Position numbers and translations under genes: made by a program | Notes under the pieces: model-generated | Told to the model about the DNA's origin: nothing | Seen by the model: only the letters and a program-made list of their open reading frames with translations | The model's database searches: none | Assembly: GCF_038500265.1 (NCBI RefSeq) | Contig: NZ_CP150637.1 | Coordinates: 1,389,501-1,453,500 of the forward strand | DNA: 64,000 nucleotides | Reading direction: 5' to 3' | Origin: Ignatzschineria larvae DSM 13226 | GTDB lineage: Bacteria > Pseudomonadota > Gammaproteobacteria > Cardiobacteriales > Wohlfahrtiimonadaceae | Shown here: piece by piece, positions 1 through 60,500 of the stretch | Layout: every line of letters begins with the position of its first letter | How positions within the stretch are numbered: the stretch's first letter is position 1

Positions 1-2718
1 CTGGTTTACCAGGTTTTGATGTATCGATATTTCCACCTTCATTATTGATGCCATTATCGCCATTGACATTACCGCCACCGGTTGTGATTTCACCACCTTT
101 ACCATTGTCGCCAATGCCATTATCGACTTTACCGCCAGCATTCACATCACCACCATCAGTGTTGATCTCTCCGCCTTTGTTATTGACATCATTCTTCGCG
201 GTGACGTCTCCACCTTCACCGGGTTTATTAGGCTTAGAGGTATCTATCTTACCGCCATTGTTATTGTTGATATCTTTACCTGATTCAACATTACCACCGC
301 CGGTATTGATCGACCCACCATTTTCACCATTGGCATCACCACCGTTATTGATAGAACCATTACCGCCGGTATTGACATTACCACCGTCAGTATTGATTTC
401 CCCATCTTTATTGTTGATGTCACCATCTTTGGTTGTTACATCTCCACCTTCACCTGGTTTACCAGGTTTTGATGTATCGATATTTCCACCTTCATTATTG
501 ATGCCATTATCGCCATTGACATTACCGCCACCGGTTGTGATTTCACCACCTTTACCATTGTCGCCAATGCCATTATCGACTTTACCGCCAGCATTCACAT
601 CACCACCATCAGTGTTGATCTCTCCGCCTTTGTTATTGACATCATTCTTCGCGGTGACGTCTCCACCTTCACCGGGTTTATTAGGCTTAGAGGTATCTAT
701 CTTACCGCCATTGTTATTGTTGATATCTTTACCTGATTCAACATTACCACCGCCGGTATTGATCGACCCACCATTTTTACCATTGGCATCACCACCGTTA
801 TTGATAGAACCATTACCGCCGGTATTGACATTACCGCCGTCAGTATTGATTTCCCCATCTTTATTGTTGATGTCACCATCTTTGGTTGTTACATCTCCAC
901 CTTCACCTGGTTTGCCAGGTTTTGATGTGTCGATATTTCCACCTTCATTATTGATGCCATTATCGCCATTAACATTACCGCCACCGGTTGTGATTTCACC
1001 ACCTTTACCATTGTCGCCAATGCCATTATCGACTTTACCGCCAGCATTCACATCACCACCATCAGTGTTGATCTCTCCGCCTTTGTTATTGACATCATTC
1101 TTCGCGGTGACGTCTCCACCTTCACCGGGTTTATTAGGCTTAGAGGTATCTATCTTACCGCCATTGTTATTGTTGATATCTTTACCTGATTCAACATTAC
1201 CACCGCCGGTATTGATCGACCCACCATTTTCACCATTGGCATCACCACCGTTATTGATAGAACCATTACCGCCGGTATTGACATTACCACCGTCAGTATT
1301 GATTTCCCCATCTTTATTGTTGATGTCACCATCTTTGGTTGTTACATCTCCACCTTCACCTGGTTTACCAGGTTTTGATGTATCGATATTTCCACCTTCA
1401 TTATTGATGCCATTATCGCCATTGACATTACCGCCACCGGTTGTGATTTCACCACCTTTACCATTGTCGCCAATGCCATTATCGACTTTACCGCCAGCAT
1501 TCACATCACCACCATCAGTGTTGATCTCTCCGCCTTTGTTATTGACATCATTCTTCGCGGTGACGTCTCCACCTTCACCGGGTTTATTAGGCTTAGAGGT
1601 ATCTATCTTACCGCCATTGTTATTGTTGATATCTTTACCTGATTCAACATTACCACCGCCGGTATTGATCGACCCACCATTTTCACCATTGGCATCACCA
1701 CCGTTATTGATAGAACCATTACCGCCGGTATTGACATTACCACCGTCAGTATTGATTTCCCCATCTTTATTGTTGATGTCACCATCTTTGGTTGTTACAT
1801 CTCCACCTTCACCTGGTTTACCAGGTTTTGATGTATCGATATTTCCACCTTCATTATTGATGCCATTATCGCCATTGACATTACCGCCACCGGTTGTGAT
1901 TTCACCACCTTTACCATTGTCGCCAATGCCATTATCGACTTTACCGCCAGCATTCACATCACCACCATCAGTGTTGATCTCTCCGCCTTTGTTATTGACA
2001 TCATTCTTCGCGGTGACGTCTCCACCTTCACCGGGTTTATTAGGCTTAGAGGTATCTATCTTACCGCCATTGTTATTGTTGATATCTTTACCTGATTCAA
2101 CATTACCACCGCCGGTATTGATCGACCCACCATTTTTACCATTGGCATCACCACCGTTATTGATAGAACCATTACCGCCGGTATTGACATTACCGCCGTC
2201 AGTATTGATTTCCCCATCTTTATTGTTGATGTCACCATCTTTGGTTGTTACATCTCCACCTTCACCTGGTTTGCCAGGTTTTGATGTGTCGATATTTCCA
2301 CCTTCATTATTGATGCCATTATCGCCATTAACATTACCGCCACCGGTTGTGATTTCACCACCTTTACCATTGTCGCCAATGCCATTATCGACTTTACCGC
2401 CAGCATTCACATCACCACCATCAGTGTTGATCTCTCCGCCTTTGTTATTGACATCATTCTTCGCGGTGACGTCTCCACCTTCACCGGGTTTATTAGGCTT
2501 AGAGGTATCTATCTTACCGCCATTGTTATTGTTGATATCTTTACCTGATTCAACATTACCACCGCCGGTATTGATCGACCCACCATTTTCACCATTGGCA
2601 TCACCACCGTTATTGATAGAACCATTACCGCCGGTATTGACATTACCACCGTCAGTATTGATTTCCCCATCTTTATTGTTGATGTCACCATCTTTGGTTG
2701 TTACATCTCCACCTTCAC
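1..2718 (-). repeat. Higher-order 1,359-bp unit (three 453-bp repeats) present twice
   Basis: Diagnostic differences recur with period three. Copies 2 and 5 carry 'tttttacc' where the others have 'ttttcacc'. Copies 3 and 6 both begin with 'tttgccagg', then 'gatgtgtcg' and 'gccattaacatt'. Units 1-3 therefore match units 4-6, which points to block duplication of a trimer rather than stepwise gain of single units. Confidence 0.85.
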
Positions 2719-2800
2719 CTGGTTTACCAGGTTTTGATGTATCGATATTTCCACCTTCATTATTGATGCCATTATCGCCATTGACATTACCGCCACCGGT
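1..2800 (-). repeat. 453-bp in-frame tandem repeat, about 6.2 copies
   Basis: The unit starts at about 1, 454, 907, 1360, 1813 and 2266, with a partial copy from 2719 that diverges near 2800. Each unit encodes 151 residues rich in Gly, Asn, Asp and Glu, made of shorter GGN(I/V)-type motifs separated by TSKP(G/N)KPGEGG hinges. Copies differ by only a few bases, so amplification is recent or homogenised. More copies may lie beyond the left edge. Confidence 0.97.
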
Positions 2801-5800
2801 TTCAAGGTTTCCATCTTTATTATTGACATCACCACCAGGTGCATTGACATCACCACCTTCAGTATTAGTATCTTTACCGGAATTATCATAGTCCGATCCT
2901 GATCCATTAGAGCCTGGCTTATCACCACCACTTTCACCGCCGTTTTCACCGCCAGTACCTGGTTTGTCGCCACCACTTTCACCGCCGTTTTCGCCGCCAG
3001 TACCTGGTTTGTCGCCACCACTTTCACCGCCGTTTTCGCCGCCAGTACCTGGTTTGTCGCCACCACTTTCACCGCCGTTCTCGCCGCCAGTACCTGGTTT
3101 GTCGCCACCACTTTCACCGCCGTTCTCGCCGCCAGTACCTGGTTTGTCGCCACCACTTTCACCGCCGTTTTCACCGCCAGTACCTGGTTTGTCGCCACCA
3201 CTTTCACCGCCGTTTTCGCCGCCAGTACCTGGTTTGTCGCCACCACTTTCACCGCCGTTTTCGCCGCCAGTACCTGGTTTGTCGCCACCACTTTCACCGC
3301 CGTTCTCGCCGCCAGTACCTGGTTTGTCGCCACCACTTTCACCGCCGTTCTCGCCGCCAGTACCTGGTTTGTCGCCACCACTTTCACCGCCGCTCTCGCC
3401 GCCAGTACCTGGTTTGTCGCCACCACTTTCACCGCCGTTTTCACCGCCAGTACCTGGTTTGTCGCCACCACTTTCACCGCCGTTTTCGCCGCCAGTGCCT
3501 GGTTTATCGCCACCACTTTCACCGCCGTTCTCGCCACCGTTGCCGTTTTCGCCACCAGTACCTGGTTGTTCTGTTGGTTCAAAATCAGTCGTCAAATACC
3601 AGTTGTCATTAGATAATACTAAGAACTGCTCGTATGAACCTTTTTTGACATCATTATATTTGAACGCATTTTCAGTTGACCCACCTGTTTTGATCATTGC
3701 TAAATCACCAACAACTAATTGACCAGCTACACCAGTTGTTGTAATAAAGACATTTGTTTGACCCGAAGCTTTTCCTTCAATAATTAGTTGATCGCCTGTA
3801 GCTGAATGGTTTCCCATAATATGGGCATTCATATGGAGCGCTGCATCATCACCAGCACCTTCATAATTACCTGTAATAGTTAATGTATTACCAATCTTTG
3901 GCCCACGAAGATCCAATGCTCCCTCATTGCGAAGTGCAGAATTAAACTTTAAATGATTAATTGTATCTTCATTACTTATCTTCTGCGCATCGGACATCCC
4001 TACTTGGATAGTACCGGCATTGTAAAAGATCCCACTATTTCCTTCCTTATGCTCTAGAACACCAGTTCCTTCAAAGCGTCCATCTTTACGTACAGTCAAT
4101 CCTCCAACGGTTTGTTCAGTACCATTAAGATCAAAAGTTGCTTTTTCAGAGACTATCAGCATAGAAGTCGTACCTAAGGCGCCAGTAATACCAGCAATCA
4201 AACTACCTGACACGACCGTTGTCGTTCCTGAATAGCTATTCTTGCTATTATTTAAGATAACAGCACTACCCTCGATATTACGAATCTCAAGATTTCCATT
4301 GCCTGATTTATCAGAAATTAACGCTGTAAACGCATTTGCTTTATCTTTACTGCCCTCAAGAATTACGGTTTTCCCATCAAGAATAGCAAGTCCGGTGAGC
4401 TGGTAATTTACGAAAAGACCTTTATCTTTGGACTTATCCTCTGACCTCAAATCATAAGCAAATATTCCTTCTGCTACTACTTCTGAATCATTTGGTGCAG
4501 TCGATTTATTAGTAATATTTACAGCCTTATCCTTTACTGACTGACCTTGTTGATCAGTTAATTCTAAATTCAGCTCGCTAATGTCTCCCTTAACCTCTTT
4601 TGTACTTGCTAATTGGAGATAGGCATTATCTGCAACGTTTAAATCAATTAAACTCAAACCTTGAGTAGATGGATCTAATGCTTCCGGCATTCCCTCAACA
4701 CGCACTGTACCACCATTTGAGAAATCAAGAGTATTCGTATTTAATACGTTCGTAGAACTCATTTGAGCCCACTCTTGAGAGATACCATTATTAAAGGTTA
4801 ATTGACCGCCACCAAAGCTCACATTATTGAGTTCTTGATTACCTTGAGCATCTTTCTCAAAACTCACATTAGAATCACTTCCAATATTAAGCGTACCTTT
4901 ACTGACTGCATTACTATTGTTGTCATTTAGAGTCAATTGGCCATTATTAATATTCACCGTTCCAGCGAAATCTGAACCAACATTACCCCCGAAGTTAAAC
5001 TCTCCTTGATTCGCATCAATAGTTAATTGACCATTACCAGTTAGGCCATGATTAAACCCATTATCTTTTACTTTTAAATTAGAATTTTGGTCTACATCAA
5101 AGTTTCCACCAAAGTCATTTGCTTTATCTTTTTGATAATCAAGATCAGTATTCACAAGACTGACTGTTCCATCGCCTTTAAGAGTACTATTTAAGTGGTT
5201 AAGATCTAACGAACCTCCCTCTGGTGACTTATTGAAGTGATCGAGTACCAAGGTACTACTAGCGCCGATATTGACAGTATTGCCCTCACCACCAAGATTG
5301 TCATTTTTCGAAACAGTGAGCGAACTGCCGCCATTTTCTGTCCCTGGTTTTGATCCTAACGTCCAGCTACCATTGAAATTTGAATTATCGCCCTTAACTA
5401 CAATCTCGCTATCATTAAGCGTAACATCCCCTTGACCTTTAATGGTTTGCTCTAAAGTGTTATTTGAATCACTCTCTTTAGGAATATTATTGAAAGTCAA
5501 GTGAGAATTGTCAGTTTCTAAATTAACTGTCGCACCTTCTCCACCTAAATGTTTAAGATCATCGTTAATGATGAGGTTTCCATTTTCATCAACCTTAATG
5601 GTGCCACCAAAACCGCTATTATCACCGGCAAGTTCAACATCCCCAGGATTCTCACCTTCAGTACCTGGCTTAATATTAATATGCCCTTGACCGCTAATGT
5701 TGTTTTTCACAGCATCATTACCGGTCTTTTCACCCACAAGCGTTAAAGTACCATCATTTTTGATACCCGCTTCACCAAGGCTTCCACCTTGATCAATAAC

Positions 5801-8800
5801 AATATGGCCGTTACCGTTATTCCCTTCACCTTTGCCAATATTGACATTCACGCCAGAACCTAAGCCGCTATTGTTACCGCTCACAGTAAAGGTATTATCC
5901 CCATTTGTTTTGCTACCAGGGACATTGATACTACCGCTATCCCCTTTGAGACCGCCATCTTTGGTTGATGAACCACCGCCATTGATATTGAGATTACCGC
6001 CATCTAAATCGATAACCCCATCATTTTTGAGCTCTCCGGTCACATCGACTTTGCCAGGTTTACCATCTTTGTTACCAATAATGATTTCGCCAGCTTCTTT
6101 CTTATTATCAAGCATTCCACCAACATTCATCTCACCACCGCCAAGATCAATCTTGCCGCTGTTAGTGACATTATTATCGATTGAAACATTACCGCCCTCA
6201 GTTGTGATCTGACCACCTTGGTTGGTTAAATTACCATTAGCTGTGATGTTGCCACCACCAGTCTTGATTTCACTTTCTGCTCCTTCGTTGGTAATATCCC
6301 CTTTAGCTGAGATATCTCCGCCTATTTCTCCTGGGCGAGAGGTATCGATCTTACCACCATTTTGGTTAGTAAGATCTTTACCTACTTCAATATTTCCACC
6401 GCCGGTTTTCGTTTCACCGCCGTTATTGGTGAAATCACCTTTACATTCAGTTTCACTTGACTCATCACACTCTGGTGTTGGGTAAACAATAATGTTTCCA
6501 CCTTTATCATCTTCTTTCGAGGTATCAATCACACCACCATTATTGGTGAGATTTCCACCATTGCCTGGTTTTGGCTTACCATTTTCATCGACTACAGGCT
6601 TACCAGTTTCAGGATCAATCTCACCACCGACAATAATATCTCCACCGCCAGTTATGACATCACCATCACCAGATTTTGCATTTTCTGATGGTTTTTTATT
6701 GGTGAGGTCGCCACCAGATGTGATATTTCCACCTTCACCATTCGGATTTGAGGAGTCTATCTTACCTTCATTATTGATACCGGCACCGCCAGAAACATTA
6801 CCGCCACCAGTTACAATATTACCTCCAGATTTATTATCCAAAGTGCCATCAATAATGACATTACCACCTGTATCACCCGGTTTTGCAGTATTTACATTAC
6901 CACTATTTTCAAGGTTCCCATTATCCTTAGTCGTAACATTACCACCATCAGTAATGATATTTCCACCTTGATTATCTTGATCGGGATTATTGCTAATGCC
7001 ACCATTTCCGGCATTAACATTACCACCTTTCCCTTCTTCTCCTTCTGGTTTTGAAGTATCAATATTTCCACCATCATTATTAATACCATTACCTGAGACA
7101 TTACCTCCTCCTGTCGTAATATCACCATTTTTATTATCAATATTCCCACCGGCATTAACATTACCACCATCTGTAATAATCGTACCATCGCCGTTATTAA
7201 TATTACCACCAGAGTTAAGATCACCACCTTCCCCTGGTTTTACTGGATTAGCGGTATTAATCTCACCCTTATTTTGATTATTAATATCCCCACATTTTTT
7301 CGGGTCAGTATTAGTACAATTGGTAGATAAGTCGCCACCTTCAGTTTCTAATTTTCCACCATCATTATTGATACTACCACCATTTTCAACAGTAACATCT
7401 GAGCCACCTGTATTAGCACCATTACTATTATTGGTATTATTATAATCGCCTTCAATAATCGTCACATTTTTGGCTTCATACTTGAGGTATAGCCCTTTAT
7501 CTGCGTTATCTGCGATCAGCATATCTCCTGTGCCAAAGATATACCCATAAGTTACCTTCACTTTGGTTTTATTATCAGCAAGAGTAAAAGTTTGCTCTAC
7601 AGTATCTCCCTCATTAATTGTTTTGCCATTTATTTTATAAACAACACTATCCCCAACCTCTAAACTGCCATTCCCTGAAACTTTAGCTAATTGATGAGTG
7701 TCACTTGAACCAAAAATATCATTGACGCTTTGTGGTGCATCTGATCTAGTTGCTCGTCCTTTCTCATCAGTTGCAATATTTACATTAATAATACCGCTTT
7801 TAATATAAAGATTATTAGCAACTAAAAGGCTATCCTGACTTCCTATACCAAAGTTGAAATTAAGCTGACTATCTGAACCATCCATAGTGAAATTATTAAA
7901 GGATGATTCACCCTTGATTGTTGCTGTAGAATTCTCACCGATTATAATACTACTCTGAGCAAATTTATCACCTGATAAATCTGTATTTTTGACATTTTTA
8001 AGAGAATAAGTACCTGTAAATTCTGGATTAATTTTATCACCAAATACAAGCTCTCTATCACTTGCATTAATATCGACTTTACCACTACCGCTTACTGAGG
8101 TGTTAAATGTATAAGTATCACCTTGTTTCAAGGCAATATCTAATACCCCATTCTCTGCTAGTACAACATTACTTGATCCTAAAGCTTGATCACTTTGAAC
8201 CGTCAAAACGCCATTTTGAACATCAAATTTCCCACCCCAATTATTATTATCAGCAGATAAAGTAAGGCCGGCATCAATACCAGAAACTACTAAAGTTCCT
8301 TGACCTTGTAAACCGTCTGATTTTGTACTGGTACCTTTCCCACTTACAGTAAGAGTACCATCTTGAGCTATCTTTAACGCACCTTCATTTTTCAGATTTG
8401 TGACAGATTGTGATTGATCATGAAGATTAACAATACCATTATCAGTAATGACTAAAGCGCCTAAACCAAAGCCATCTTTTTTAGTAAGATTAACTGTACC
8501 ATTTTTGACAGTTGTGCCACCAGTGTAGCTATTACTTGCATTACCATATTGCATACCCACTTGGTTTGCATCAAGTACAACTCCCCCAGCTCCAGTCAAA
8601 AGTAAAGCAAAACTTTTGTCTTTGTCACTGTCAGTTGCTTTAATATCTAATTCTCTTCCTTGAATGATTTGAACAGAATGGAGTCCTGAAGTAACAAATA
8701 GACCATTACGATCTCCATTTGTTGTGGTAACACCTTCACCATATTTTGCAAAACCAACAATTGCATTGTTTTGGCGAAGAGTACGCTCTAGTTCGATAAA

Positions 8801-11800
8801 ACTCTCTTCATCCTGCACTTTAACTTCTTCACCATTAACAGATACCTTGGTACTATCATTTAAAATAACAGACTGATTTCCAGAATCAACAAGCGTCAAA
8901 TTATGTTTTTTACCAACACCTGAAGCAAATACTTGCTCAGCAGTCAGTTCGGCTCCATCCTTAATTGGACTACCATTGCTTTCCGCTCCTTGACCATATC
9001 CATCTTCAATAGTGATATTAACTGTACCCCCATTGAGATTGAGTTGATTAACAGTCAATTTCCCATCTACTTTTGGCGTTCCAGCTAAACTTCCATTGAA
9101 ATTCAAGCTAGAATCTTTATTAAAGGTTGCATTTTTAGCGGTAAGATTGCCATCCATTACCAGCGTAGCACCCTCGTTTAAAACAAGATTACTTTTCCCA
9201 CTAATTGTTTGCTGATTGCTTCCTTCTTTAGCAGAAAGAGTCGCTGTTGTAAAATTATAGGTTCCTGCATATTGATTACCGACATTTGAACCAAATACAA
9301 AGTGATTCTGTGCATCTTTACCAACAATATCTACTTGCCCTTGACCTGATAAAGCTTGGTTAAATTCAGATTGATTTTGAATCTTAATACGACCATCTGA
9401 GCCAATATTTAAACGCCCTTGACCAAAACTTAAAATATCATTAAATAATAACGTACCATTAACATTAATATTGGCAGCAAGATCACTTTGCACACTCGTA
9501 ATCGTCGTGGTCGTACCTTTATTTAGTACAATAGTAGAATCTGCACCACCTTTTAATTGTGATGCATTGGTTATTGTATTATTACCAGCTAACGTTAATT
9601 GCCCGTTTCCTAAGACAATTGTCCCAAGAACATTATCATTTCCCTTAACAAGTAGAGAATTACCACGTAATTGGATCTCTCCCTTATTCTTAAGGCCAGC
9701 AAACTCTTGATTATTAATCGCTAACCGTAGTGTTCCACCTTCAACAATTAAGTTATTTTGACTAATATTTTTATTCAAAACAACGGTACCCGCACCAGTT
9801 ACCGTCGTCGATCCCTTATAGTTGTATACTCCATCTAATGTGATAATACCGCGTTTGGAATCTATTGCTAAATTAGCACTATTATCACCATTAATAACTG
9901 CTTTAGATACAGTTTCTGCGGTCTCTTTACCAATTGTGAGATTTAGGGTTTTCCCTGATTTAATATCATACCGATAGGCTCCTGAGCGAAGATACAGGTC
10001 TTGATCATTCTTACCTCCCCAGGCAAGCCCTGTTCCTACATAAATCTTAGCTACATCATCATCAATTATTTGTGAATTAGAATCATTATTTACAACAACC
10101 CCATTCTTTTCTCCCCCATTCCACCCTACATTCCCTGCCTTTTTATCGGGATCTTTGACAGAATAAACCTTTAACATATTAGGATTATTTTTAAAATTTT
10201 CACTAGGATTCAACACCGTAATCAGAGTATCAGAGGTGCCGTTTTCATCCAGATGTGTATAATTTGTAGAGCCAGCCAGTATATCTTGTGATGGTAACCA
10301 GTCTGAATCAACATACAGTCTATTGGGATCAGTAACTCCTGATGACCCTTCTTTCATATCCCAACGACCAAATACTTGCCCTGGGGCATTTTGATGTTCG
10401 AGATGGATATAGCTGTGAAGAGATGTTAATTCAATAGGTTTGCTTGTATGATCCCCTAAAAGAACAAAATGGGATCCTGTTATATCAAATCCTTGGAAAT
10501 CAGGGTTACGCTCATATAATCGATTGTATTGCTCTGGATTATCGAAATAAAACCCAACACCATCACCACTAATTTTTTTAGACTCAAAAGTATTTAAAAA
10601 GTTATTAGTGAATGATATAGTTTTATAATCTTGTACATTATTACGGTTATCAAAATGCAATGTCGCTTGATGATTACTGTCTTTGATAGTTTGATTAAAA
10701 TACATCATCTGTAAGGGTGAATTACTACCTAAAGCTGTTGAACCTGTTTTAGTCACATCTGCTTCAATAATAACAGGACCACCATTACCGACAACCTCAA
10801 TTTGTCTATCTATAAGATTGACAGGAGCCCTATATTGACCACCAGTCGCATTCAAAATAACTTTAGTAGTGTTACCTTTAGATTGCTGATGTTGATTCGT
10901 ATCAATAATCAATTTTTTAGTATCAATATTGCCCATTTGACGAAAGTCAATCTTTGAATCATACAGTACAACTAATGAATCTAATTCTCGAACCTTAAAC
11001 TGAGGGGCTGGAGATTTCTCATTACGATTAACATTCATCCCAAATACAACTTGTCCTCCCATCACTACAAAATTAGCGTCTAGATTTTGAGTATCCGCGA
11101 GATACAACGAGCCTGTACAATATATATATCCGTTGGCTCCTGGTCGTGCTCTATTGTCAATCGTTACGACTTTACCATCTGAATTAGACCCGCTATATGA
11201 TACATTCCATCGATCCGCACTAACAAATTGTAATCCATCTTTCCAACGAGCATTTTCCTCCTCATACATTACCCCTGTATTATTCAATATACTAATCTTA
11301 CTGGCATCTACAACTTTATCGAATTTAATACTACCGGCTTTCGATGTTTTAGGCGCTTTATTATTAGAACGATTATCAAATTCAATAGTAGCCTTTGCGG
11401 AACGTCCATAAAAATCAATCGTTGTCTTTTTAATATATGCCTGTCCAGGGTGATCTGCACCTTCCCAAGTCCAATTATGTATATCAATTGCACTACCTGT
11501 TGTACTGACTTTTAGCTCTTCAATGGAATTGTAGTTGTAAATATTTATAGGCTGATTATTTGTCTTCTGCCAAGCATCGACAGTTATAGTACCGGTAATC
11601 TTCCCCATCAATGCTAAGGCAGCATTTGCAGGCACTATTATATTCACGTTCTTCAGTACAGAATTTGCACTTGTTTTAAACATCTTGGCACCTGGATTAA
11701 ATGTCACATTCAATGTGTCATTATTGTTCCCTGTCCAAATATCATTATCACTAGTAATGGTAAGAGATCCACTTGTAACATTATTGCCTGTAAGATCTGC

Positions 11801-12142
11801 AAAAGGTGCAATTGCTACAATAGATTTAGGTACAACCACTGATCGCATAGATTGTTTATCATCATCCTCATCTTCTATAGTAGGAAGAACTTCAGGAGCA
11901 GATAAGTCATAAGCGCTTTCATTAGAAAATTCTTCACTTTCTTGCGCATATGAGGTTGTTATTAGACAACCAGCCATTATTAGTGATAGCCAAACTCTAT
12001 TATGGGGGTAACGAGTGCTTTCTATAGTTCTACTTGTAGATTTTGCAACTGAACTATTACCTGTATCACTCTGACCTAATTCACTTGTAACCACTTTACG
12101 TTGTAATTTATGATTCCAAATGACCTTAAAAATTCTATTCAT
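1..12142 (-). CDS. Giant autotransporter adhesin, N-terminal 4,047 codons (3' end beyond left edge)
   Basis: The minus strand is open from an ATG at 12142 to the window edge; I checked the frame at several points (12142, 8527, 5050, 3601, 3016, 52). AGGAG lies 7 nt before the ATG. The N-terminus (MNRIFKVIWN, then VVTSEL) is an extended signal peptide region, and the hydrophobic core ends at SYA|QE near residue 66. The passenger is Gly/Asn/Asp/Thr-rich, as expected of a beta-helix, with autotransporter-associated strand repeats near residues 770, 1206 and 2638 (for example NSYSGTTTVVSGSL). Residues about 1600-2100 are divergent GGNI-type repeats. Residues about 2680-2857 resemble the pertactin-type passenger end, closing in NDNWYLTTDF. 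Then come about fourteen 15-residue repeats and more than 930 residues of 151-residue repeats. The expected outer-membrane beta-barrel is not in the window. It is a secreted surface protein, probably an adhesin; the ligand is unknown. Confidence 0.9.
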   Translation of the reverse strand, partial: MNRIFKVIWNHKLQRKVVTSELGQSDTGNSSVAKSTSRTIESTRYPHNRVWLSLIMAGCLITTSYAQESEEFSNESAYDLSAPEVLPTIEDEDDDKQSMRSVVVPKSIVAIAPFADLTGNNVTSGSLTITSDNDIWTGNNNDTLNVTFNPGAKMFKTSANSVLKNVNIIVPANAALALMGKITGTITVDAWQKTNNQPINIYNYNSIEELKVSTTGSAIDIHNWTWEGADHPGQAYIKKTTIDFYGRSAKATIEFDNRSNNKAPKTSKAGSIKFDKVVDASKISILNNTGVMYEEENARWKDGLQFVSADRWNVSYSGSNSDGKVVTIDNRARPGANGYIYCTGSLYLADTQNLDANFVVMGGQVVFGMNVNRNEKSPAPQFKVRELDSLVVLYDSKIDFRQMGNIDTKKLIIDTNQHQQSKGNTTKVILNATGGQYRAPVNLIDRQIEVVGNGGPVIIEADVTKTGSTALGSNSPLQMMYFNQTIKDSNHQATLHFDNRNNVQDYKTISFTNNFLNTFESKKISGDGVGFYFDNPEQYNRLYERNPDFQGFDITGSHFVLLGDHTSKPIELTSLHSYIHLEHQNAPGQVFGRWDMKEGSSGVTDPNRLYVDSDWLPSQDILAGSTNYTHLDENGTSDTLITVLNPSENFKNNPNMLKVYSVKDPDKKAGNVGWNGGEKNGVVVNNDSNSQIIDDDVAKIYVGTGLAWGGKNDQDLYLRSGAYRYDIKSGKTLNLTIGKETAETVSKAVINGDNSANLAIDSKRGIITLDGVYNYKGSTTVTGAGTVVLNKNISQNNLIVEGGTLRLAINNQEFAGLKNKGEIQLRGNSLLVKGNDNVLGTIVLGNGQLTLAGNNTITNASQLKGGADSTIVLNKGTTTTITSVQSDLAANINVNGTLLFNDILSFGQGRLNIGSDGRIKIQNQSEFNQALSGQGQVDIVGKDAQNHFVFGSNVGNQYAGTYNFTTATLSAKEGSNQQTISGKSNLVLNEGATLVMDGNLTAKNATFNKDSSLNFNGSLAGTPKVDGKLTVNQLNLNGGTVNITIEDGYGQGAESNGSPIKDGAELTAEQVFASGVGKKHNLTLVDSGNQSVILNDSTKVSVNGEEVKVQDEESFIELERTLRQNNAIVGFAKYGEGVTTTNGDRNGLFVTSGLHSVQIIQGRELDIKATDSDKDKSFALLLTGAGGVVLDANQVGMQYGNASNSYTGGTTVKNGTVNLTKKDGFGLGALVITDNGIVNLHDQSQSVTNLKNEGALKIAQDGTLTVSGKGTSTKSDGLQGQGTLVVSGIDAGLTLSADNNNWGGKFDVQNGVLTVQSDQALGSSNVVLAENGVLDIALKQGDTYTFNTSVSGSGKVDINASDRELVFGDKINPEFTGTYSLKNVKNTDLSGDKFAQSSIIIGENSTATIKGESSFNNFTMDGSDSQLNFNFGIGSQDSLLVANNLYIKSGIINVNIATDEKGRATRSDAPQSVNDIFGSSDTHQLAKVSGNGSLEVGDSVVYKINGKTINEGDTVEQTFTLADNKTKVKVTYGYIFGTGDMLIADNADKGLYLKYEAKNVTIIEGDYNNTNNSNGANTGGSDVTVENGGSINNDGGKLETEGGDLSTNCTNTDPKKCGDINNQNKGEINTANPVKPGEGGDLNSGGNINNGDGTIITDGGNVNAGGNIDNKNGDITTGGGNVSGNGINNDGGNIDTSKPEGEEGKGGNVNAGNGGISNNPDQDNQGGNIITDGGNVTTKDNGNLENSGNVNTAKPGDTGGNVIIDGTLDNKSGGNIVTGGGNVSGGAGINNEGKIDSSNPNGEGGNITSGGDLTNKKPSENAKSGDGDVITGGGDIIVGGEIDPETGKPVVDENGKPKPGNGGNLTNNGGVIDTSKEDDKGGNIIVYPTPECDESSETECKGDFTNNGGETKTGGGNIEVGKDLTNQNGGKIDTSRPGEIGGDISAKGDITNEGAESEIKTGGGNITANGNLTNQGGQITTEGGNVSIDNNVTNSGKIDLGGGEMNVGGMLDNKKEAGEIIIGNKDGKPGKVDVTGELKNDGVIDLDGGNLNINGGGSSTKDGGLKGDSGSINVPGSKTNGDNTFTVSGNNSGLGSGVNVNIGKGEGNNGNGHIVIDQGGSLGEAGIKNDGTLTLVGEKTGNDAVKNNISGQGHINIKPGTEGENPGDVELAGDNSGFGGTIKVDENGNLIINDDLKHLGGEGATVNLETDNSHLTFNNIPKESDSNNTLEQTIKGQGDVTLNDSEIVVKGDNSNFNGSWTLGSKPGTENGGSSLTVSKNDNLGGEGNTVNIGASSTLVLDHFNKSPEGGSLDLNHLNSTLKGDGTVSLVNTDLDYQKDKANDFGGNFDVDQNSNLKVKDNGFNHGLTGNGQLTIDANQGEFNFGGNVGSDFAGTVNINNGQLTLNDNNSNAVSKGTLNIGSDSNVSFEKDAQGNQELNNVSFGGGQLTFNNGISQEWAQMSSTNVLNTNTLDFSNGGTVRVEGMPEALDPSTQGLSLIDLNVADNAYLQLASTKEVKGDISELNLELTDQQGQSVKDKAVNITNKSTAPNDSEVVAEGIFAYDLRSEDKSKDKGLFVNYQLTGLAILDGKTVILEGSKDKANAFTALISDKSGNGNLEIRNIEGSAVILNNSKNSYSGTTTVVSGSLIAGITGALGTTSMLIVSEKATFDLNGTEQTVGGLTVRKDGRFEGTGVLEHKEGNSGIFYNAGTIQVGMSDAQKISNEDTINHLKFNSALRNEGALDLRGPKIGNTLTITGNYEGAGDDAALHMNAHIMGNHSATGDQLIIEGKASGQTNVFITTTGVAGQLVVGDLAMIKTGGSTENAFKYNDVKKGSYEQFLVLSNDNWYLTTDFEPTEQPGTGGENGNGGENGGESGGDKPGTGGENGGESGGDKPGTGGENGGESGGDKPGTGGESGGESGGDKPGTGGENGGESGGDKPGTGGENGGESGGDKPGTGGENGGESGGDKPGTGGENGGESGGDKPGTGGENGGESGGDKPGTGGENGGESGGDKPGTGGENGGESGGDKPGTGGENGGESGGDKPGTGGENGGESGGDKPGTGGENGGESGGDKPGSNGSGSDYDNSGKDTNTEGGDVNAPGGDVNNKDGNLETGGGNVNGDNGINNEGGNIDTSKPGKPGEGGDVTTKDGDINNKDGEINTDGGNVNTGGNGSINNGGDANGENGGSINTGGGNVESGKDINNNNGGKIDTSKPNKPGEGGDVTAKNDVNNKGGEINTDGGDVNAGGKVDNGIGDNGKGGEITTGGGNVNGDNGINNEGGNIDTSKPGKPGEGGDVTTKDGDINNKDGEINTDGGNVNTGGNGSINNGGDANGKNGGSINTGGGNVESGKDINNNNGGKIDTSKPNKPGEGGDVTAKNDVNNKGGEINTDGGDVNAGGKVDNGIGDNGKGGEITTGGGNVNGDNGINNEGGNIDTSKPGKPGEGGDVTTKDGDINNKDGEINTDGGNVNTGGNGSINNGGDANGENGGSINTGGGNVESGKDINNNNGGKIDTSKPNKPGEGGDVTAKNDVNNKGGEINTDGGDVNAGGKVDNGIGDNGKGGEITTGGGNVNGDNGINNEGGNIDTSKPGKPGEGGDVTTKDGDINNKDGEINTDGGNVNTGGNGSINNGGDANGENGGSINTGGGNVESGKDINNNNGGKIDTSKPNKPGEGGDVTAKNDVNNKGGEINTDGGDVNAGGKVDNGIGDNGKGGEITTGGGNVNGDNGINNEGGNIDTSKPGKPGEGGDVTTKDGDINNKDGEINTDGGNVNTGGNGSINNGGDANGKNGGSINTGGGNVESGKDINNNNGGKIDTSKPNKPGEGGDVTAKNDVNNKGGEINTDGGDVNAGGKVDNGIGDNGKGGEITTGGGNVNGDNGINNEGGNIDTSKPGKPGEGGDVTTKDGDINNKDGEINTDGGNVNTGGNGSINNGGDANGENGGSINTGGGNVESGKDINNNNGGKIDTSKPNKPGEGGDVTAKNDVNNKGGEINTDGGDVNAGGKVDNGIGDNGKGGEITTGGGNVNGDNGINNEGGNIDTSKPGKP
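2911..3540 (-). repeat. 45-bp tandem repeat encoding a 15-residue Gly/Glu linker, about 14 copies
   Basis: Each unit encodes PGTGGENGGESGGDK with rare silent or single-base changes (ttc/ttt/ctc, tca/tcg). The array sits directly after the passenger-end motif NWYLTTDF and before the 151-residue repeats, in the same reading frame. Where many autotransporters have a short Pro-rich linker, this one has an acidic Gly-rich linker of about 210 residues. Confidence 0.95.
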
Positions 12143-13266: not shown

Positions 13267-16200
13267 TTAATCCCAACCAAACGCAACGCCAATACCAACA
13301 CCTGCTTTATTTTGAGTGTCGTATGAGGCATTAATACGTAACAAGCTTCTATCTCCAATTTTGAAAGTGAATCCCGCAGAAATAGCCGCTTCACCATCAT
13401 ATACTGCAGTCCCCATACCAAAAGAATATTTTGCTGTTTCAACATAAGGCATAGAACTCATTGCCATTGCGCCAGCAACACCAGCACTCGCAATCTTACG
13501 GTTTTGATGAACTGTTTTTTCAATATTATTAAGACGAGTATTATAGTGACTTAAAGTATTATTAATGCTAGTAACTTCACGATCCACTTTTTGATCAAGC
13601 GCCCATAACTGACCTCCATTCACAACCTCTTTGGAATTCTCAGCAATATTACCATCAGCAACACCTTTAATCACTCTGTTACTATCACCATTACTGAAAT
13701 TCACAGAGGTTGCACCTGTTGCGCCATTAACAACAATCTCCTCACCTTGCACCCTAAAGAGCGAGCCTTGATCAATCGCTTCAATCGCTTCAGCCACAGT
13801 TTTATATCCCTGTCCATTCACGGTTAATGCTGCACCATTTTCATCGTAATAAACATTACCATTACTATCTATCTTCGCTCCTCCACCGAGTAGCTTACCA
13901 ATAGCATCCTGCGTCTGATTTAATTGACCTCCTGTCACCGCATCTTTAGAGTTTTCGGCAATAGAACCATTTGCTAACCCCGTCAATTTACGACCATCTC
14001 CGTTGCCGTTATCTTGCGCAATGTTAAAATCACCATTTCCTGCAAGTCCATTATTAATAATAATTTGGCCATCTTTATTCCCTGTATTCTTTTCAGAACT
14101 AGCTGGGAAATTGCTATCCACTAAGGTATGATTTTGATCATTTTTTCCTAAAGGTTTATTGTTATCTTCTACTTGAATAATACCTGATTTACCAGTTTCT
14201 AAATCATCAACACGATTCACCACATTACTCATCTGCCCATCTAATGCCTTGATACGGCCATCTAAGTTTTCAAATCCTGCATAGACCGTTGTAATAGAGC
14301 CTTTCCCCTTACCGAAAGCACCTGAGAAATCAACGCCAGTTAACTGACCATTTCCATCAAGCTTAGCATCGCCACCTAAGGCGGTAGCTACATTTCGATT
14401 TGCACTGTAAAGCTGTGAGCCATTAATTGCATCTTTAGAAATATCAGTAATAGCCCCATCTGCTAAACCTGTAAGTGTGCGACCTTGATCTGCATTAGCA
14501 ATATTAAAAGTTTCAGCACCATTCGCTTCTGGGGCAATCACTAAGGATTGCTTATCTGTTGATAATTGCACTAAACCTAAAGTGCCCGCAGATACTTTAT
14601 TCTCGATATTCTCGATACTTTCACTATTTGAAACCACTCGACCATCTATATTTTCAAAAGCTGCTTTAACATCAGTGACTGTTGCTTTACTTCCTTCTTT
14701 ACCAAGCTTTAACTCCCAAGTTCCATTGGTTTCTAAACCGCCCAAGGCGTTTGTAACATCTGTCACATTTTTATTTGTCTTATCAAATTCGCCTTTAACA
14801 TGCGCAAAGCCAGCATTAACATCTTTAATAGTACCTTCTTTAGCACCTAAAGCACCTGAGAAATCAGGAGCAGTCCAAACTCCATTATCAAACTGAGCAC
14901 CGCCACCTAAGGCAGTTGTAACATCCTTAATCTGGGAAAAATTGACCGCATCATTATCTGCTTTACCTCGAGAAACACCAGTTAAAGTACGGCTAGATTC
15001 ATCTGATTTAGCAATATTGAAAGTCTTAGCACTATCCGCCTGTGACGATATTACTAAAGATTGTTGATCTGTTGATAATTGCACTAAACCTAAAGTGCCC
15101 GCAGATACTTTATTCTCGATACTCTCGATACTTTCACTATTTGAAACTACTCGACCATCTAAATTGGTTAAAGCTGAACCTACTGTTACATGCTTACTCT
15201 TATCTTTAAACTCATAACTCGGGGCAGTAACTACACCATTTGCACCTACAGAAGCACCGCCACCTAAAGCTTGCGTTAAATCCTCCGCTGACTTTTTATT
15301 AGCATCAGATGCAACTTTGTTACTCATTACTCGACCATCTATATTCTCAATAGCTGATTTCACTGTCGTAGTCTCACTATCTGATCCATTTAGCTTCACC
15401 GACCATTTACCATCATCTATACCTAAAGCAGTTGTAACATCTGTCACATTTTTATTTGTCTTATCAAATTCGCCTTTAACATGCGCAAAGCCAGCATTAA
15501 CATCTTTAATAGTACCTTCTTTAGCACCTAAAGCACCTGAGAAATCAGGAGCAGTCCAAACTCCATTATCAAACTGAGCACCGCCACCTAAGGCAGTTGT
15601 AACATCCTTAATCTGGGAAAAATTGACCGCATCATTATCTGCTTTACCTCGAGCAACACCAGTTAAGCTACGATTTTCATCTTTTTTAGCAATATTGAAA
15701 GTTTCAGCACTATTCGCTTCTGGGGCAATTACTAAGGATTTCTTATCTGTTGATAATTGCACTAAACCTAAAGTGCCCGCAGATACTTTATTCTCGATAC
15801 TCTCGATACTTTCACTATTTGAAACTACTCGACCATCTAAATTGGTTAAAGCTGAACCTACTGTTACATGCTTACTCTTATCTTTAAACTCATAACTCGG
15901 GGCAGTAACTACACCATTTGCACCTACAGAAGCACCGCCACCTAAAGCTTGCGTTAAATCCTCCGCTGACTTTTTATTAGCATCAGATGCAACTTTGTTA
16001 CTCATTACTCGACCATCTATATTCTCAATAGCTGATTTCACTGTCGTAGTCTCACTATCTGATCCATTTAGCTTCACCGACCATTTACCATCATCTATAC
16101 CTAAAGCAGTTGTAACATCTGTCACATTTTTATTTGTCTTATCAAATTCGCCTTTAACATGCGCAAAGCCAGCATTAACATCTTTAATAGTACCTTCTTT

Positions 16201-17658
16201 AGCACCTAAAGCACCTGAGAAATCAGGAGCAGTCCAAACTCCATTATCAAACTGAGCACCGCCACCTAAAACTGTAGCAACACCTGTACCAAGCACATAT
16301 AATTGACCACCTGTGACTGCTTCTTTAGAATCCTTTTTGACCGAACCATCTGCGACATTCACTAATTTACGTTGGAGCGTATCATTACCAAATGATACGG
16401 TATTTTCTAATGTTGCTTTAGATTTAGCCCCAATTGCTACAGATCCTTCTGCTTTAGATTCAGATCTTTCCCCTATCGATATAGCCCCTTTACCAGCTAT
16501 AGATGAAGCACCTATTGCAATTGCATCAGTCAATTGAGAGGTCGCCTTATGACCTATTGCAATACCCCAAGTAGCGCCGTCTTTTACTGTAGCTTCTACC
16601 CCTATTGCTACAGAATTTACAGCTTTTGTGTTAGATTTTATTCCAATCGCAATACTCCCATTACTTCTAGCAAAAGACTCAGCTCCTATAGCAATTGCAT
16701 TTGGGCCATATAGCATACCTGGAGTGTCCTCTCCCGATCTTGCTTGATAGCCTAGGGCAATACCTCGATCTGCTGCTGTAGTGGCGCCATTCCCTATTGC
16801 TACCGCAGACTCTCCATTAACAGATGCGGATGACCCTAATGCTATAGCAAACTTATGATTTGCTGTTGCAGAGGCTCCAATTGCTATACTCTTTAAATGA
16901 TGGGTTTCTTTACCAAGCCCTTTATTTGAACTTACTTTCGCTCCGTCACCAATAGCAATTGAACTGTCAAAATAGGCTTGGGCACCTTTGCCTATAGCAA
17001 TCGATGCTCTTCCATACGTAACATTATCGGAAGTTATTCCTGATTGAGCTTTATACCCTAGTGCAAGACCATCAGCTGTTGTAGCCTTAGCCTCCTGCCC
17101 AATCGCTATAGCTCTGCCATGCTGAGATATTGCATTATACCCTATTGCCATAGCCCCAACGATTGTATTAGGATAAAGCTCTGTATCAGAACTATTAGTT
17201 ATACTTGAAAAGTCTATTGTAGCCCCCTCTCCTATAGTGAAAGCATTATTTTTAGGCAATAACGATCCAATATTTTGGGAATTAGTATCATCAATTAATC
17301 TCCCACTTTTCAATAAAATGCTAGGCTGAGAATTAGCTAATCTAATTTTCTTAATTTGTTTTTCATCTTCCTCTTCTAAAGCATACTCTTCTTCAGTACT
17401 TTTATGCACAATTTCATTGATAGAGTTTTGTGGAAGCATCACGATAGAGTCTAATGCTATCCCCTTATCGCTGATATTATCAGCTTCCAGAGAAGTTTCT
17501 TGAGCAAGTGCAGGCCCCCCAAAGAGAGAAATTAATGTAAATGCCACAATAGTTGCATTGCCAACACTCGATGTCGCTCGTTTTTGAGCCACCAACTCAG
17601 ATGTAACAACATAATCCTTTTTAAGATAACTCCATACAACACTATATATTCTATTCAT
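13267..17658 (-). CDS. Trimeric autotransporter adhesin (YadA/Hia type)
   Basis: This 1,463-residue surface adhesin (type Vc secretion) has an ESPR start (MNRIYSVVWS, VVTSEL) and a signal peptide ending near GPALA|QE. The head (about residues 165-420) is built of 14-residue Hep_Hag repeats such as RAIAIGQEAKATTADGLALG. A neck follows (about 420-455: FGNDTLQRKLVNVADG, AVTGGQLY). The stalk has several GGGAQFDNG-, SNSESIE- and GRVVSN-type segments, including a near-perfect 226-residue duplication. The last 90 residues are a YadA-like anchor (ENSKEVVNGGQLWAL, a short coiled coil, four beta strands, final FGWD). Three chains should share one 12-strand barrel. SD is weak (GGTGA). The 5' flank (17659-17950) is AT-rich and shows no gene. 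Confidence 0.95.
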   Translation of the reverse strand: MNRIYSVVWSYLKKDYVVTSELVAQKRATSSVGNATIVAFTLISLFGGPALAQETSLEADNISDKGIALDSIVMLPQNSINEIVHKSTEEEYALEEEDEKQIKKIRLANSQPSILLKSGRLIDDTNSQNIGSLLPKNNAFTIGEGATIDFSSITNSSDTELYPNTIVGAMAIGYNAISQHGRAIAIGQEAKATTADGLALGYKAQSGITSDNVTYGRASIAIGKGAQAYFDSSIAIGDGAKVSSNKGLGKETHHLKSIAIGASATANHKFAIALGSSASVNGESAVAIGNGATTAADRGIALGYQARSGEDTPGMLYGPNAIAIGAESFARSNGSIAIGIKSNTKAVNSVAIGVEATVKDGATWGIAIGHKATSQLTDAIAIGASSIAGKGAISIGERSESKAEGSVAIGAKSKATLENTVSFGNDTLQRKLVNVADGSVKKDSKEAVTGGQLYVLGTGVATVLGGGAQFDNGVWTAPDFSGALGAKEGTIKDVNAGFAHVKGEFDKTNKNVTDVTTALGIDDGKWSVKLNGSDSETTTVKSAIENIDGRVMSNKVASDANKKSAEDLTQALGGGASVGANGVVTAPSYEFKDKSKHVTVGSALTNLDGRVVSNSESIESIENKVSAGTLGLVQLSTDKKSLVIAPEANSAETFNIAKKDENRSLTGVARGKADNDAVNFSQIKDVTTALGGGAQFDNGVWTAPDFSGALGAKEGTIKDVNAGFAHVKGEFDKTNKNVTDVTTALGIDDGKWSVKLNGSDSETTTVKSAIENIDGRVMSNKVASDANKKSAEDLTQALGGGASVGANGVVTAPSYEFKDKSKHVTVGSALTNLDGRVVSNSESIESIENKVSAGTLGLVQLSTDQQSLVISSQADSAKTFNIAKSDESSRTLTGVSRGKADNDAVNFSQIKDVTTALGGGAQFDNGVWTAPDFSGALGAKEGTIKDVNAGFAHVKGEFDKTNKNVTDVTNALGGLETNGTWELKLGKEGSKATVTDVKAAFENIDGRVVSNSESIENIENKVSAGTLGLVQLSTDKQSLVIAPEANGAETFNIANADQGRTLTGLADGAITDISKDAINGSQLYSANRNVATALGGDAKLDGNGQLTGVDFSGAFGKGKGSITTVYAGFENLDGRIKALDGQMSNVVNRVDDLETGKSGIIQVEDNNKPLGKNDQNHTLVDSNFPASSEKNTGNKDGQIIINNGLAGNGDFNIAQDNGNGDGRKLTGLANGSIAENSKDAVTGGQLNQTQDAIGKLLGGGAKIDSNGNVYYDENGAALTVNGQGYKTVAEAIEAIDQGSLFRVQGEEIVVNGATGATSVNFSNGDSNRVIKGVADGNIAENSKEVVNGGQLWALDQKVDREVTSINNTLSHYNTRLNNIEKTVHQNRKIASAGVAGAMAMSSMPYVETAKYSFGMGTAVYDGEAAISAGFTFKIGDRSLLRINASYDTQNKAGVGIGVAFGWD
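14906..16261 (-). repeat. 678-bp tandem duplication in the adhesin stalk (two copies plus partial third)
   Basis: The block encoding GGGAQFDNGVWTAPDFSG through the SNSESIESIENKVSAG and ISQ/IKDV region recurs at a 678-bp offset (about 15584-16261 and 14906-15583). A third partial copy is downstream. The DNA is almost identical apart from a few bases around the variable ENRSLTGVARG/SSRTLTGVSRG junctions. The stalk length can therefore change in steps of 226 residues. Confidence 0.9.
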
Positions 17659-57521: not shown

Positions 57522-60500
57522 CTATGATTCTTGCTGTTTCGACTTCTCTGCTAATACATAGCTAAGCCAATGAGAAGAGATAATATCAGGCAAACGATTT
57601 TGACTGGTTCTGGCAGTCAAGTTATCAAGGTCCACATTTTTAAGGGGTTGATCTTGTTGTGAACAGGTAAATACAGCTTGGGTACGCTCTTTCGTCACAG
57701 GATCGATCTGCCACTGTAGACATTGCCCGCAAACCCCTTTCATCATACATTGCATTGGGCTACCGATAGTACCGGTAATATGTAGATCCTCTTTGAAACG
57801 ATCATAGAGAGATCCGCCTTCAGAGAGCTCTTTTTGGAAACCTTTTAACATTCCTGTTGAACCCATTGCCATTAAACGATCAACAGCTTTCATCTCGACA
57901 ATACCTTGATCATCTAGCTCTTTGATCAGTTTAATCACATCCCACTCGACAACTGAATGATCTTGGGGTCTTCTTGCTTCAATCGGCTCACCTTTACCGA
58001 CAGCCCAGATAATTTGATCTGCGCCCTCTTCTAAAGCATCCATTTGATCCACATCATCTTTTGAGCCCATTGCCGCAAGGTAAATGACCTTATTGCCGGC
58101 ATTACGAAGTGCAGATCCAATATCAAGCATAACAGCAGCGCCCCATTTACCGGCAACCACCAAGATTGTTTTACCTGATGGAAGATCCGTTGGTGCGCCT
58201 GTAGGACCCGCTAAGATGACTTGATCACCAGGTTTTAAAGAGGGGATTAATCGTTGACCTGTTCCCCATTGGAATACTAAAAGACGAATTGCATCCTCTG
58301 TAGATCCTGTCCCGGAAACTGTCAGAAGTGGAATTTGTAAACGTGTTCCAGCAACAATCTCACTGCCTGTTTCAAAGGTCTGCATTCTAAAGAATTGCCC
58401 TGGCTTGAAGTTTTTGGCCGCCATTGGCGCTTTGACCCACACTTCACATACAGTGGGATTGCTACTATCTATCGATTCAATGGTGGCTACTAACCCTCCA
58501 TTCATTGTCGTGGCTAATGATTCATTGCCTAAGGTATTCTCCGGCAATCTTGCCAATGCTTCCATCACAAATTTCGAGGTCTTTTTCGCACTTGCAATCG
58601 CTTTAACCACATTACCATTAAAAACAGGATGGGTATCACCGATATAAGAGACACGTTTCTCACCTCGTCTAAAAGAGGTAAAGGGCGCAAATGCCTCTTT
58701 ATTATTTGTCCCCCACTCAAAAGGTACTAAATTTCCATCTAAATCATATCCTTGGAAATGATGCTTCTCTTCAATTTCAAGAGAGCCTGGATACTCTGTG
58801 CCATAAATAGTATTCGGCGATGTACCTGCCGCCACTAAGACCGCTCGTGCCGGAACTGTTACTTCCGTCTCTCCCGATTTCATAAAGCGAATGGCTTTCA
58901 CATGGCCATATTGATCAAGTTCTACCCCTAGAGGATTGAGCTCCTCACCGAAATGAATACCTTCTTCAAAGGCTTTCGTAATCTCTTCATGATTCAGCGT
59001 ATAAGCGGGTGATTCTTGCATCTTCCGGCGATAAGCCACCATAACACCACCCCATTTTGCTAGAAGTGGATTGAAATCAGGTGTTTCACCGACTTCTGCT
59101 GCACGAGTCCTCTCGGCGCGCACTTCTCGACCATGGGTTAAAAATTCCGTTAAAGTCTCATTATCTTCCGGCGATAGATTCTCCCGAACTTTCTCTTCCC
59201 CTAAGATCTCAACGCGATGAAGGGCTTTTTCTACCTGTTTAATATAGTAAGCCTGTACTTCCGTTGCGGTATCAATTGCAGTTAATCCGCCGCCAATCAC
59301 AACGGCTGGCAATCTTACTTGAAGATTCGCAATGGAGCTATCTTTTGCGGCACCTGTTAACTGCATCGCCATTAAAAAGTCTGAGGCTTGCTTCATCCCT
59401 TTTGCTAAGGAATTTTCAATTTTAAGAACACGAGGTAAACCTGCGCCGACAGCTAATGAAACATGATCAAACCCTAAGTCAAAAGCATCATCGAGTGTTA
59501 AAGTCCCACCTAGACGGACACCGCCATAGATATCGACATTTTCTCGGCGTGCTAAGGTCAAATAGATCAATTTAAGGAAATTTTTGTCCCAACGAACGGT
59601 AATGCCATATTCTGCAACACCACCAAATCCTGCTAATATCCGATCGCCAAGATTCTCTTCTAACTCCGCCCAAGACTTGATAGGTGCAGTGAGTAATGCT
59701 TGTGGGAGCGGCTCAATTTTAAGGCCATCAATCCCTACAACATAACAACCTTGTTGCGATAGATAATGCGCCATCGTAAAGCCCGCAGGCCCCATTCCGG
59801 CCACTAATACTTTCCGATTATTCTCTTTTGCAGGGAGATAATCTGTTGGTTTAAGAGGATTCCAACGCGCAAGCAGATTATAGATCTCAACACCATATGG
59901 CAGATCTAAAACTGTTGAAAGTACACTGGTCTCAATTTGAGGGATATTGACCGGCTCTTGACGCTGATAAATACAGGATTTCATGCAATCATTACAGATC
60001 CGATGGCCTGTTGCCGGTACCATAGGATTTTCAACCATAGTAATTGCCAAAGAACCAATTGAAAGCCCCTCTTTTTCAAGACGCTGCATCTCTGAGATCA
60101 TCTCATCAAGCGGGCAACCCGTCAGTGCAGCACCAAAAGGATTTTTACGGAAACCTTGGGCGGGATCCCCTTTTTTCACGGGAAAACCGGTACTACAAAA
60201 ATCCCCATCATGATCATGGCAATACTTACAATATTCAATTTCACTAGCCACTTCATAACGATTCATGCGTTGATCTGTAAGCGCAAAGCCATCCCGTTTA
60301 CGAAGTGGATGCGTCCCCACTTTCACAGGAATCCCTTGGAATGACTCCTCCTTGGTAGAGACAAGATGATCATAATCTAAACGCGCGGGGAATTTAAAAG
60401 TCATCCAATCCGCAACCCGTGCCGCACCGACAGGATCAGATTCTGCTAAAGAACCCCATTGATAGAGCGCCTCGATCTCTGAAGCATTTTTTTCTGCATC

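Follow-up and report, generated by a model that had tools for sequence, protein, structure and literature searches.

The window analyzed here is a 64,000-nucleotide stretch of the Ignatzschineria larvae DSM 13226 genome (G000:C1:1389501-1453500); the genome is a single contig of 2.56 Mb, and the genus lives with fly larvae. The left end of the window contains a gene on the minus strand that the original prediction had described as a giant autotransporter with long repeats after its passenger end. This is confirmed: positions 2-12142 are one uninterrupted reading frame, 4047 codons long and still open at the left edge. Read into the contig, the ORF spans G000:C1:1385635-1401642 and encodes a 5335-residue protein of ~546 kDa. 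The frame is unbroken over 16 kb of assembly and stops at position 1635 of locus L009, 1288 residues past the window edge. A terminator-like hairpin (L009 1590-1559) lies ~45 bases 3' of the stop. The features of the locus are collected in Table 1.

Table 1. Features of the autotransporter locus, in window positions and protein residues (AC, autochaperone).
Feature	Window position	Strand	Basis
Autotransporter gene, in-window part	1..12142	-	ORF read into the contig; continues 1288 residues past the left edge
ESPR, type V secretion extended signal peptide, residues 1-38	12029..12142	-	PF13018, 5.5e-09
N-terminal orphan region, residues 61-700, which would leave the cell last	10043..11962	-	Genome and PDB sequence searches
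Presumed β-helix modules, residues ~701-1640	7223..10042	-	Homology to the W. chitiniclastica passenger
Copy A Gly/Asn-rich rungs, residues ~1641-2060; diverged kin of the 151-residue repeat	5963..7222	-	
Copy A helix, residues ~2061-2716, paralogue of residues ~4231-4830	3995..5962	-	Alignment of halves
AC1, internal autochaperone, residues ~2717-2854, NWYL end	3581..3994	-	PF18883, PF03212, 3ml3
Gly/Glu/Ser/Asp linker, residues 2856-3085	2888..3577	-	45-bp tandem repeat at window 2913-3535
151-residue repeats, in-window part, start of copy B	1..2801	-	Array continues 487 bases past the edge
Past the left edge: end of repeats, copy B helix, AC2 (~4831-4968), Pro/Asp/Lys linker, barrel (~5063-5306), stop		-	
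IS element, DDE_Tnp_1 transposase of 251 aa	12248..13101	-	Transposase domain match

With its end ~105 bp upstream of the start codon of the autotransporter, the IS element could influence the promoter of this gene. The genome contains no fewer than 14 near-identical copies, this one included (40 of 52 candidates scored). Window positions 13267-17658 on the minus strand encode a 1463-aa trimeric autotransporter with an ESPR, YadA head and stalk repeats, and a YadA anchor. Two type V surface-protein genes therefore adjoin, with the YadA-type gene upstream of the giant autotransporter and the IS copy between them.

By its predicted domains the 5335-residue protein is a classical type Va autotransporter. 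Pfam and NCBIfam scans, for which the protein was cut into five pieces, located a PF03797 barrel at residues ~5063-5306 (1.4e-28, 100.8 bits, cut-off 26) and matched the C-terminal part to TIGR01414 (1.1e-61). The original prediction had found no barrel before the window edge and had proposed to look for PF03797 at the extreme C-terminus, which is where the domain lies on the same chain. A missing barrel or broken frame is ruled out, as the barrel falls inside the 1288 residues past the edge; the assembled repeat array contains no frameshift or stop, and the stop beyond the edge is preceded by this export domain. The N-terminus carries the ESPR (PF13018), and the passenger is predicted to be β-helical from good models confined to the 151-residue units (two units, pLDDT 92) and the AC1 end of the passenger. 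The YadA_anchor domain of type Vc proteins (PF03895) is absent from the five pieces at Pfam E ≤ 0.1, with PF03797 found instead. No TPS-domain match, as would be expected of type Vb, occurs in the pieces at E ≤ 0.1, and the protein has its own barrel.

Models for ShdA and MisL also match the C-terminal part (6e-29 and 3.6e-22), far under their curated cut-offs. Autotransporters of the ShdA/MisL/IcsA type have a single AC immediately ahead of the barrel, whereas the protein described here has an extra AC ~2210 residues upstream, in a chain of 5335 residues. Its likeness to the ShdA/MisL-type adhesins makes a role as a long adhesin or spacer the most likely one for the whole protein, which is predicted to show its N-terminal orphan region. 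Searches of 56 other genomes gave no relative of this region (residues 61-700), and its comparison with PDB sequences returned one match only, at E 0.4. The passenger is ~5000 residues long; according to a review, passengers in its largest adhesin group range from 280 to 3333 residues (PMC9289746).

When the halves of the protein were aligned, residues 2104-2860 and 4253-4973 proved collinear through helix and AC to the NWYL end, with 324 of 687 positions identical. The protein contains two paralogous passenger segments, residues ~1641-2860 (copy A) and ~3086-4973 (copy B). In the homologue from Wohlfahrtiimonas chitiniclastica, residues 2602-3889 correspond to 1641-2850 of copy A and residues 2259-3889 to 3256-4964 of copy B; that homologue has one passenger segment of this kind and the window gene has two. 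The paralogy identifies the presumed stalk as a second passenger segment. By alignment, the extra 1,180 residues after AC1 are the linker and the first part of this segment. A stalk, a second passenger and a new architecture had all been envisaged originally. A second passenger fits best, because residues ~3086-4973 repeat ~1641-2860 in diverged form and have an AC of their own before the barrel; the rod shape implied by a stalk also holds as a prediction, and the architecture is new only in part, given the f172 ORFs described below. We are highly confident in the architecture as read from the sequence, namely two passenger segments, two ACs, a linker and one barrel. In a tree of 11 passenger ends the grouping of copies A and B was not rejected (p-AU 0.54); copy A grouped with Wohlfahrtiimonas with support of 60/32, and the grouping of copy B with Wohlfahrtiimonas gave a p-AU of 0.19.

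Both ACs score above the Pfam cut-offs of two families: 44.3 bits (AC1) and 55.6 bits (AC2) for AC_1 (PF18883, cut-off 27.1), and 35.6 and 57.3 bits for Pertactin (PF03212, cut-off 22). In Pfam, AC1 was located at ~2751-2851 (PF18883 1.1e-09, 38.7 bits in a 1000-aa piece; PF03212 5.2e-07) and AC2 at ~4849-4965 (Pertactin, 6.4e-14). A local AC profile gave 188.7 bits at 2717-2854 and 174.2 bits at 4831-4968; it was built from five autochaperones including AC1 and AC2, and its scores for these two are not independent, while those of Pfam are. The NWYLTTDF motif that had been placed near residue 2857 is present, with NWYL starting at residue 2847. It does not mark the end of the passenger as had been supposed, but belongs to the internal autochaperone AC1, and AC2 lies nearer the barrel. 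The gap to the barrel is ~96 residues for AC2 and ~2210 for AC1. In a published survey, ACs average ~100 residues ahead of the translocator (PMC5767081), and AC1 lacks this usual, although not required, position.

A profile of the AC1 region searched against PDB sequences matched 5ke1 (2.4e-27), 3ml3 (2.9e-24), 4mee (5.6e-19) and pertactin (1.1e-05). Of these, 3ml3 is the IcsA autochaperone, 5ke1 the IcsA passenger end and 4mee the autochaperone of a diffuse adherence adhesin. The AC1 model aligned with 5ke1 (Foldseek 7.6e-10; Z 22.9, rmsd 4.9) and with 3ml3 (Z 14.7, rmsd 2.6, 143 of 156 residues aligned), and AC1 is predicted to have the IcsA autochaperone fold. The model is good over its residues ~361-550 (ten-residue blocks of 81-92, with dips to 45 and 61) and poor in the preceding helix, with a mean pLDDT of 63.2 overall. 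Copies A and B are identical at 50 of 107 positions in the AC and 205 of 422 in the helix, and copy A is 39-40% identical to Wohlfahrtiimonas in AC and helix alike. AC1 is not more decayed than its helix, which fits a kept function. Its scores over both Pfam cut-offs, together with a divergence no faster than that of the helix, suggest retention.

The linker that follows AC1 was correctly recognized at the outset as acidic and Gly-rich, although it measures 230 residues rather than 210. It is 45% Gly, with 45 Asp and Glu and 14 Lys and Arg residues, and contains no V, I, L, F, M, Y, W or C in its entire length. Fourteen GGDKPG motifs are spaced by exactly 15 residues, and TRF reports the DNA as a 45-bp repeat of 13.8 copies with 97% matches. 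The 151-residue repeats that had been placed after the linker are likewise found there, as a 453-bp DNA repeat of 7.3 copies with 99% matches (TRF). Neither the linker DNA nor the 453-bp unit has a further match in the genome. Since 453 and 45 bp are both divisible by three, the lengths of the two arrays can vary in frame. The repeat array comprises seven full units and a diverged eighth. The seven units differ by 0-5 nucleotides, with at most four synonymous and at most one non-synonymous codon, and near-identity of this kind rules out chance. Units 1 and 4, 2 and 5, and 3 and 6 are identical at the DNA level, suggesting that a block of three units was copied.

Each of the seven units contains six G-x-I-[NDT]-T motifs, corresponding to six rungs of ~25 residues. 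An AlphaFold2 model of two units, made with three further rows, showed strands throughout (mean pLDDT 92.0, pTM 0.91), and the repeat is predicted to form a regular right-handed β-helix rod, the β-solenoid that the original prediction had suggested looking for. A Foldseek search with this model found nothing at E ≤ 0.001, the best match being the antifreeze β-helix 3p4g (3.3e-03), and the repeat profile found nothing among PDB sequences at E ≤ 0.1. VIA-align, which re-examined matches chosen by Foldseek, gave Z-scores of 21.0 for EtpA (rmsd 3.0, 249 residues aligned), 20.6 for HMW1, 20.0 for pertactin and 12.5 for FHA. The secretion domains of the TPS exoproteins EtpA, HMW1 and FHA share the predicted β-helix fold of the repeat; unlike in these proteins, the repeat here is in one chain with its own barrel.

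The nearest homologues are those of W. chitiniclastica DSM 18708 (L031/L025, 4216 aa) and Wohlfahrtiimonas sp. G9077 (L032/L026, 4462 aa); Wohlfahrtiimonas and Ignatzschineria belong to one family according to NCBI. Both homologues share with the window gene the type of start, the helix modules, Gly/Asn-rich rungs, the passenger end, the AC and the barrel. They differ from it in having one clear AC and one Gly/Asn-rich block, without a hydrophobe-poor linker. Relative to the W. chitiniclastica protein, the barrel is 52% identical, copy A is collinear at 36%, and residues 730-1638 are 27.9% identical to the passenger over 983 columns. Four proteins encoded next to the window gene (solute-binding protein, transposase, PTS and YadA-type) were searched by tblastn at 1e-8 in 11 loci, four of them from Wohlfahrtiimonas, without a match. 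In eight congeneric genomes there was no close relative of the C-terminal part, the best match being a 1356-aa ORF (8.2e-27, 35%); among these congeners the gene is confined to the window genome. The Gly/Asn-rich block of the G9077 homologue contains a tandem repeat that also has a 453-bp period (L026 11228-12081, 1.9 copies, 84%), with another unit sequence.

A contig scan for relatives gave five loci: the two Wohlfahrtiimonas homologues, a distant autotransporter from an Enterobacter MAG (L033) that served as outgroup, and two loci from Verrucomicrobiales (L034 and L035), which were set aside since the local AC profile found nothing in them. Among 16 other ORFs scored with this profile, from family members and the three distant loci of the scan, 13 have one clear AC, the weakest at 20.4 bits (L025-L030, L033, L037, L038, both ORFs of L039, L040 and L041), and three have none (L034, L035 and L036, the last of which is cut by a contig end). 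Outside this set of 16, each of five ORFs from a different family, 3873-5563 aa in length, likewise carries a single clear AC. ORFs of 5563, 5292, 4606, 4536 and 4039 aa have a single clear AC and no hydrophobe-poor segment; the two largest are L045 (G1150:C156) and L046 (G1067:C12). With giants of this kind carrying one AC, length or internal repetition alone is not tied to a second AC.

The same genome encodes a second giant autotransporter of 4163 aa on the minus strand (L037, G000:C1:1474001-1493000). Its order is AC, NWWL, a 758-bp array encoding ~250 Gly/Asn/Ser-rich residues, and barrel; among its relatives, the stretch between AC and barrel holds a 244-bp array in G006 and a short Gly-rich stretch in G002 and G004. 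Single-AC proteins such as L037 and L038 can thus also have a long hydrophobe-poor linker, which in these two sits after the only AC. The junction of AC1 and linker in the window gene resembles the AC-linker junction of L037, as if a passenger end minus its barrel had been joined to a second passenger. L039 carries a head-to-tail pair of large autotransporter ORFs whose stop-to-stop frames are ~150 bp apart, the second being cut by undetermined bases.

The occurrence of two ACs in one ORF was surveyed in seven genome sets, which overlap, so that the counts are not additive; pairs were judged by eye from contig, strand and open-frame length. The window gene was the only two-AC ORF in the AC_1 surveys of 18 genomes (14 with a match, 41 rows) and 369 genomes (9 with a match, 21 rows). 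It was also alone in having paired Pertactin matches among 398 genomes (43 with a match, 81 rows), a survey in which 10 of 20 candidates were scored for G1039 and 10 of 11 for G820. No two-AC ORF was present among 297 genomes searched with AC_1 (54 with a match, 117 rows) or 247 searched with Pertactin (46 with a match). For 198 genomes searched with AC_1 (91 with a match), there were no pairs among the matches listed, 21 of up to 48 candidates having been scored in some genomes. A set of 140 genomes (AC_1, 69 with a match, 96 rows) yielded three ORFs with two matches.

These three ORFs belong to family f172, and their existence led us to reject the window gene as a unique two-AC ORF. They measure 1173 aa (G1523:C40), 1404 aa (G1523:C16) and at least 1072 aa (G1522:C44; loci L042, L043 and L044), and consist of an AC with an NDWYLRS end, a Gly/Asp-rich stretch and a second AC, followed by a barrel in both ORFs not cut by a contig end. 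The G1523:C16 ORF scored 59.4 and 29.4 bits for AC_1 in the survey and 38.8 and 23.7 bits with the local profile, and AC_1 was absent from a Pfam scan of this protein at E ≤ 0.01. The f172 ORFs resemble the window gene in having two AC_1 matches per frame and the barrel last, and by sequence the two-AC layout would not be wholly new. Unlike the window gene, they are short, the stretch between their ACs is not hydrophobe-poor, and no 151-residue repeat was seen. By eye the Gly/Asp-rich stretch is RTX-like and unlike the preceding helix; judged from sequence, it interrupts the helix in another way than the window-gene linker does. The f172 cases fit the addition of an AC after a break in the helix, and the two-AC layout seems to be rare and to have more than one origin. 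A search of full-text literature, with subscription papers mostly outside its reach, gave among the papers listed no description of a protein with two ACs, an internal AC or a duplicated passenger. A text search of the AC survey (PMC5767081) found no wording on several, duplicated or tandem ACs. In the literature on the two genera, the term autotransporter was absent among the matches listed.

According to one source, classical passengers are exported from C- to N-terminus, the C-terminal rungs are proposed to be a stable core that seeds the remainder of the passenger, and barrel loop L5 is given a nucleating role (PMC5895577). The chain order of the window protein is ESPR, N-terminal orphan region and helix, AC1, linker, repeat helix, AC2, Pro/Asp/Lys linker and barrel. 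On export, AC2 would be out first, fold and seed the repeat rod. The linker would emerge next and, being incapable of helix folding, would break the templating. AC1, emerging after it, would cap the distal helix and nucleate it anew, and this helix would display the N-terminal region at its tip. Such a chain may have arisen when a passenger end was copied along with its AC, or by fusion of two neighbouring autotransporter genes, the first of which would have lost its barrel after the AC and linker. Taken jointly, the architecture and a role of AC1 in restarting folding, which we infer, seem to us moderately probable. Against the restart role, AC1 could be an inherited cap without a present role, and it would be far from the barrel, whose loop L5 has been given a nucleating role, when it folds.

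It is also conceivable, though in our judgement unlikely, that AC1 is a fossil of the gene fusion or internal duplication, which folds and caps the distal helix while AC2 and the barrel drive export. The order of AC, Gly-rich linker and barrel in L037 and its G006 relative would make AC1 and its linker the end of an autotransporter whose barrel has been displaced, and the head-to-tail ORFs of L039, from a related genome, offer a possible precursor arrangement. Against a fossil, however, AC1 exceeds both Pfam cut-offs and has diverged no faster than its helix despite an A-B identity of 47-49%.

Cleavage offers another use for the same layout: the Gly/Glu/Ser linker may be a processing site or shedding hinge from which the distal passenger is released with AC1 as its C-terminal cap, while the rod stays behind. 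A segment of 230 residues without hydrophobes would be accessible to proteases, and AC1 is a complete passenger end right before it. However, the Pfam scan of the pieces revealed no protease domain and the relatives also have long Gly-rich linkers ahead of the barrel, and we regard cleavage as quite improbable. Least credible is an assembly artefact in which neighbouring autotransporter genes or the repeat array were joined or miscounted. With units that are 99% alike, the copy number would be uncertain if short reads had been used. Yet no stop interrupts the frame over 16 kb of one 2.56 Mb contig, the two segments are diverged paralogues and thus not derived from duplicated reads, and a false join would lack a template, since the rest of the genome matches neither the 453-bp unit nor the linker DNA.

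To our knowledge, it is open in the field how very long passengers manage to fold in the ATP-free space outside the cell, and whether the AC acts as nucleus, cap or anchor. With one AC near the barrel, another ~2,200 residues away and a flexible linker between them, the window gene would be a natural protein in which these roles are separable by removing each AC, and would offer a ready-made layout in which a single barrel displays two modules that fold independently. A broader reading, that autochaperones are repeatable cassettes and that an internal AC is needed to restart folding after each stretch that is not β-helix, is a tentative one that we are inclined to doubt. If it were true, one barrel would export several independently folding passengers in series, and the window gene and the three f172 ORFs would be separate multi-passenger cases.

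Long frames on the plus strand run antisense to the repeats and linker (window 3-2891 and 2964-3722), and neither has a Pfam match at E ≤ 0.01; a further antisense frame of up to 1157 aa occupies L009 4918-8391 (+). These frames are probably by-products of the repeated codons. Elsewhere in the window, the minus strand at 57522-60947 contains a 1141-aa ORF whose sole Pfam match at E ≤ 0.001 is Pyr_redox_2, at residues 379-572.
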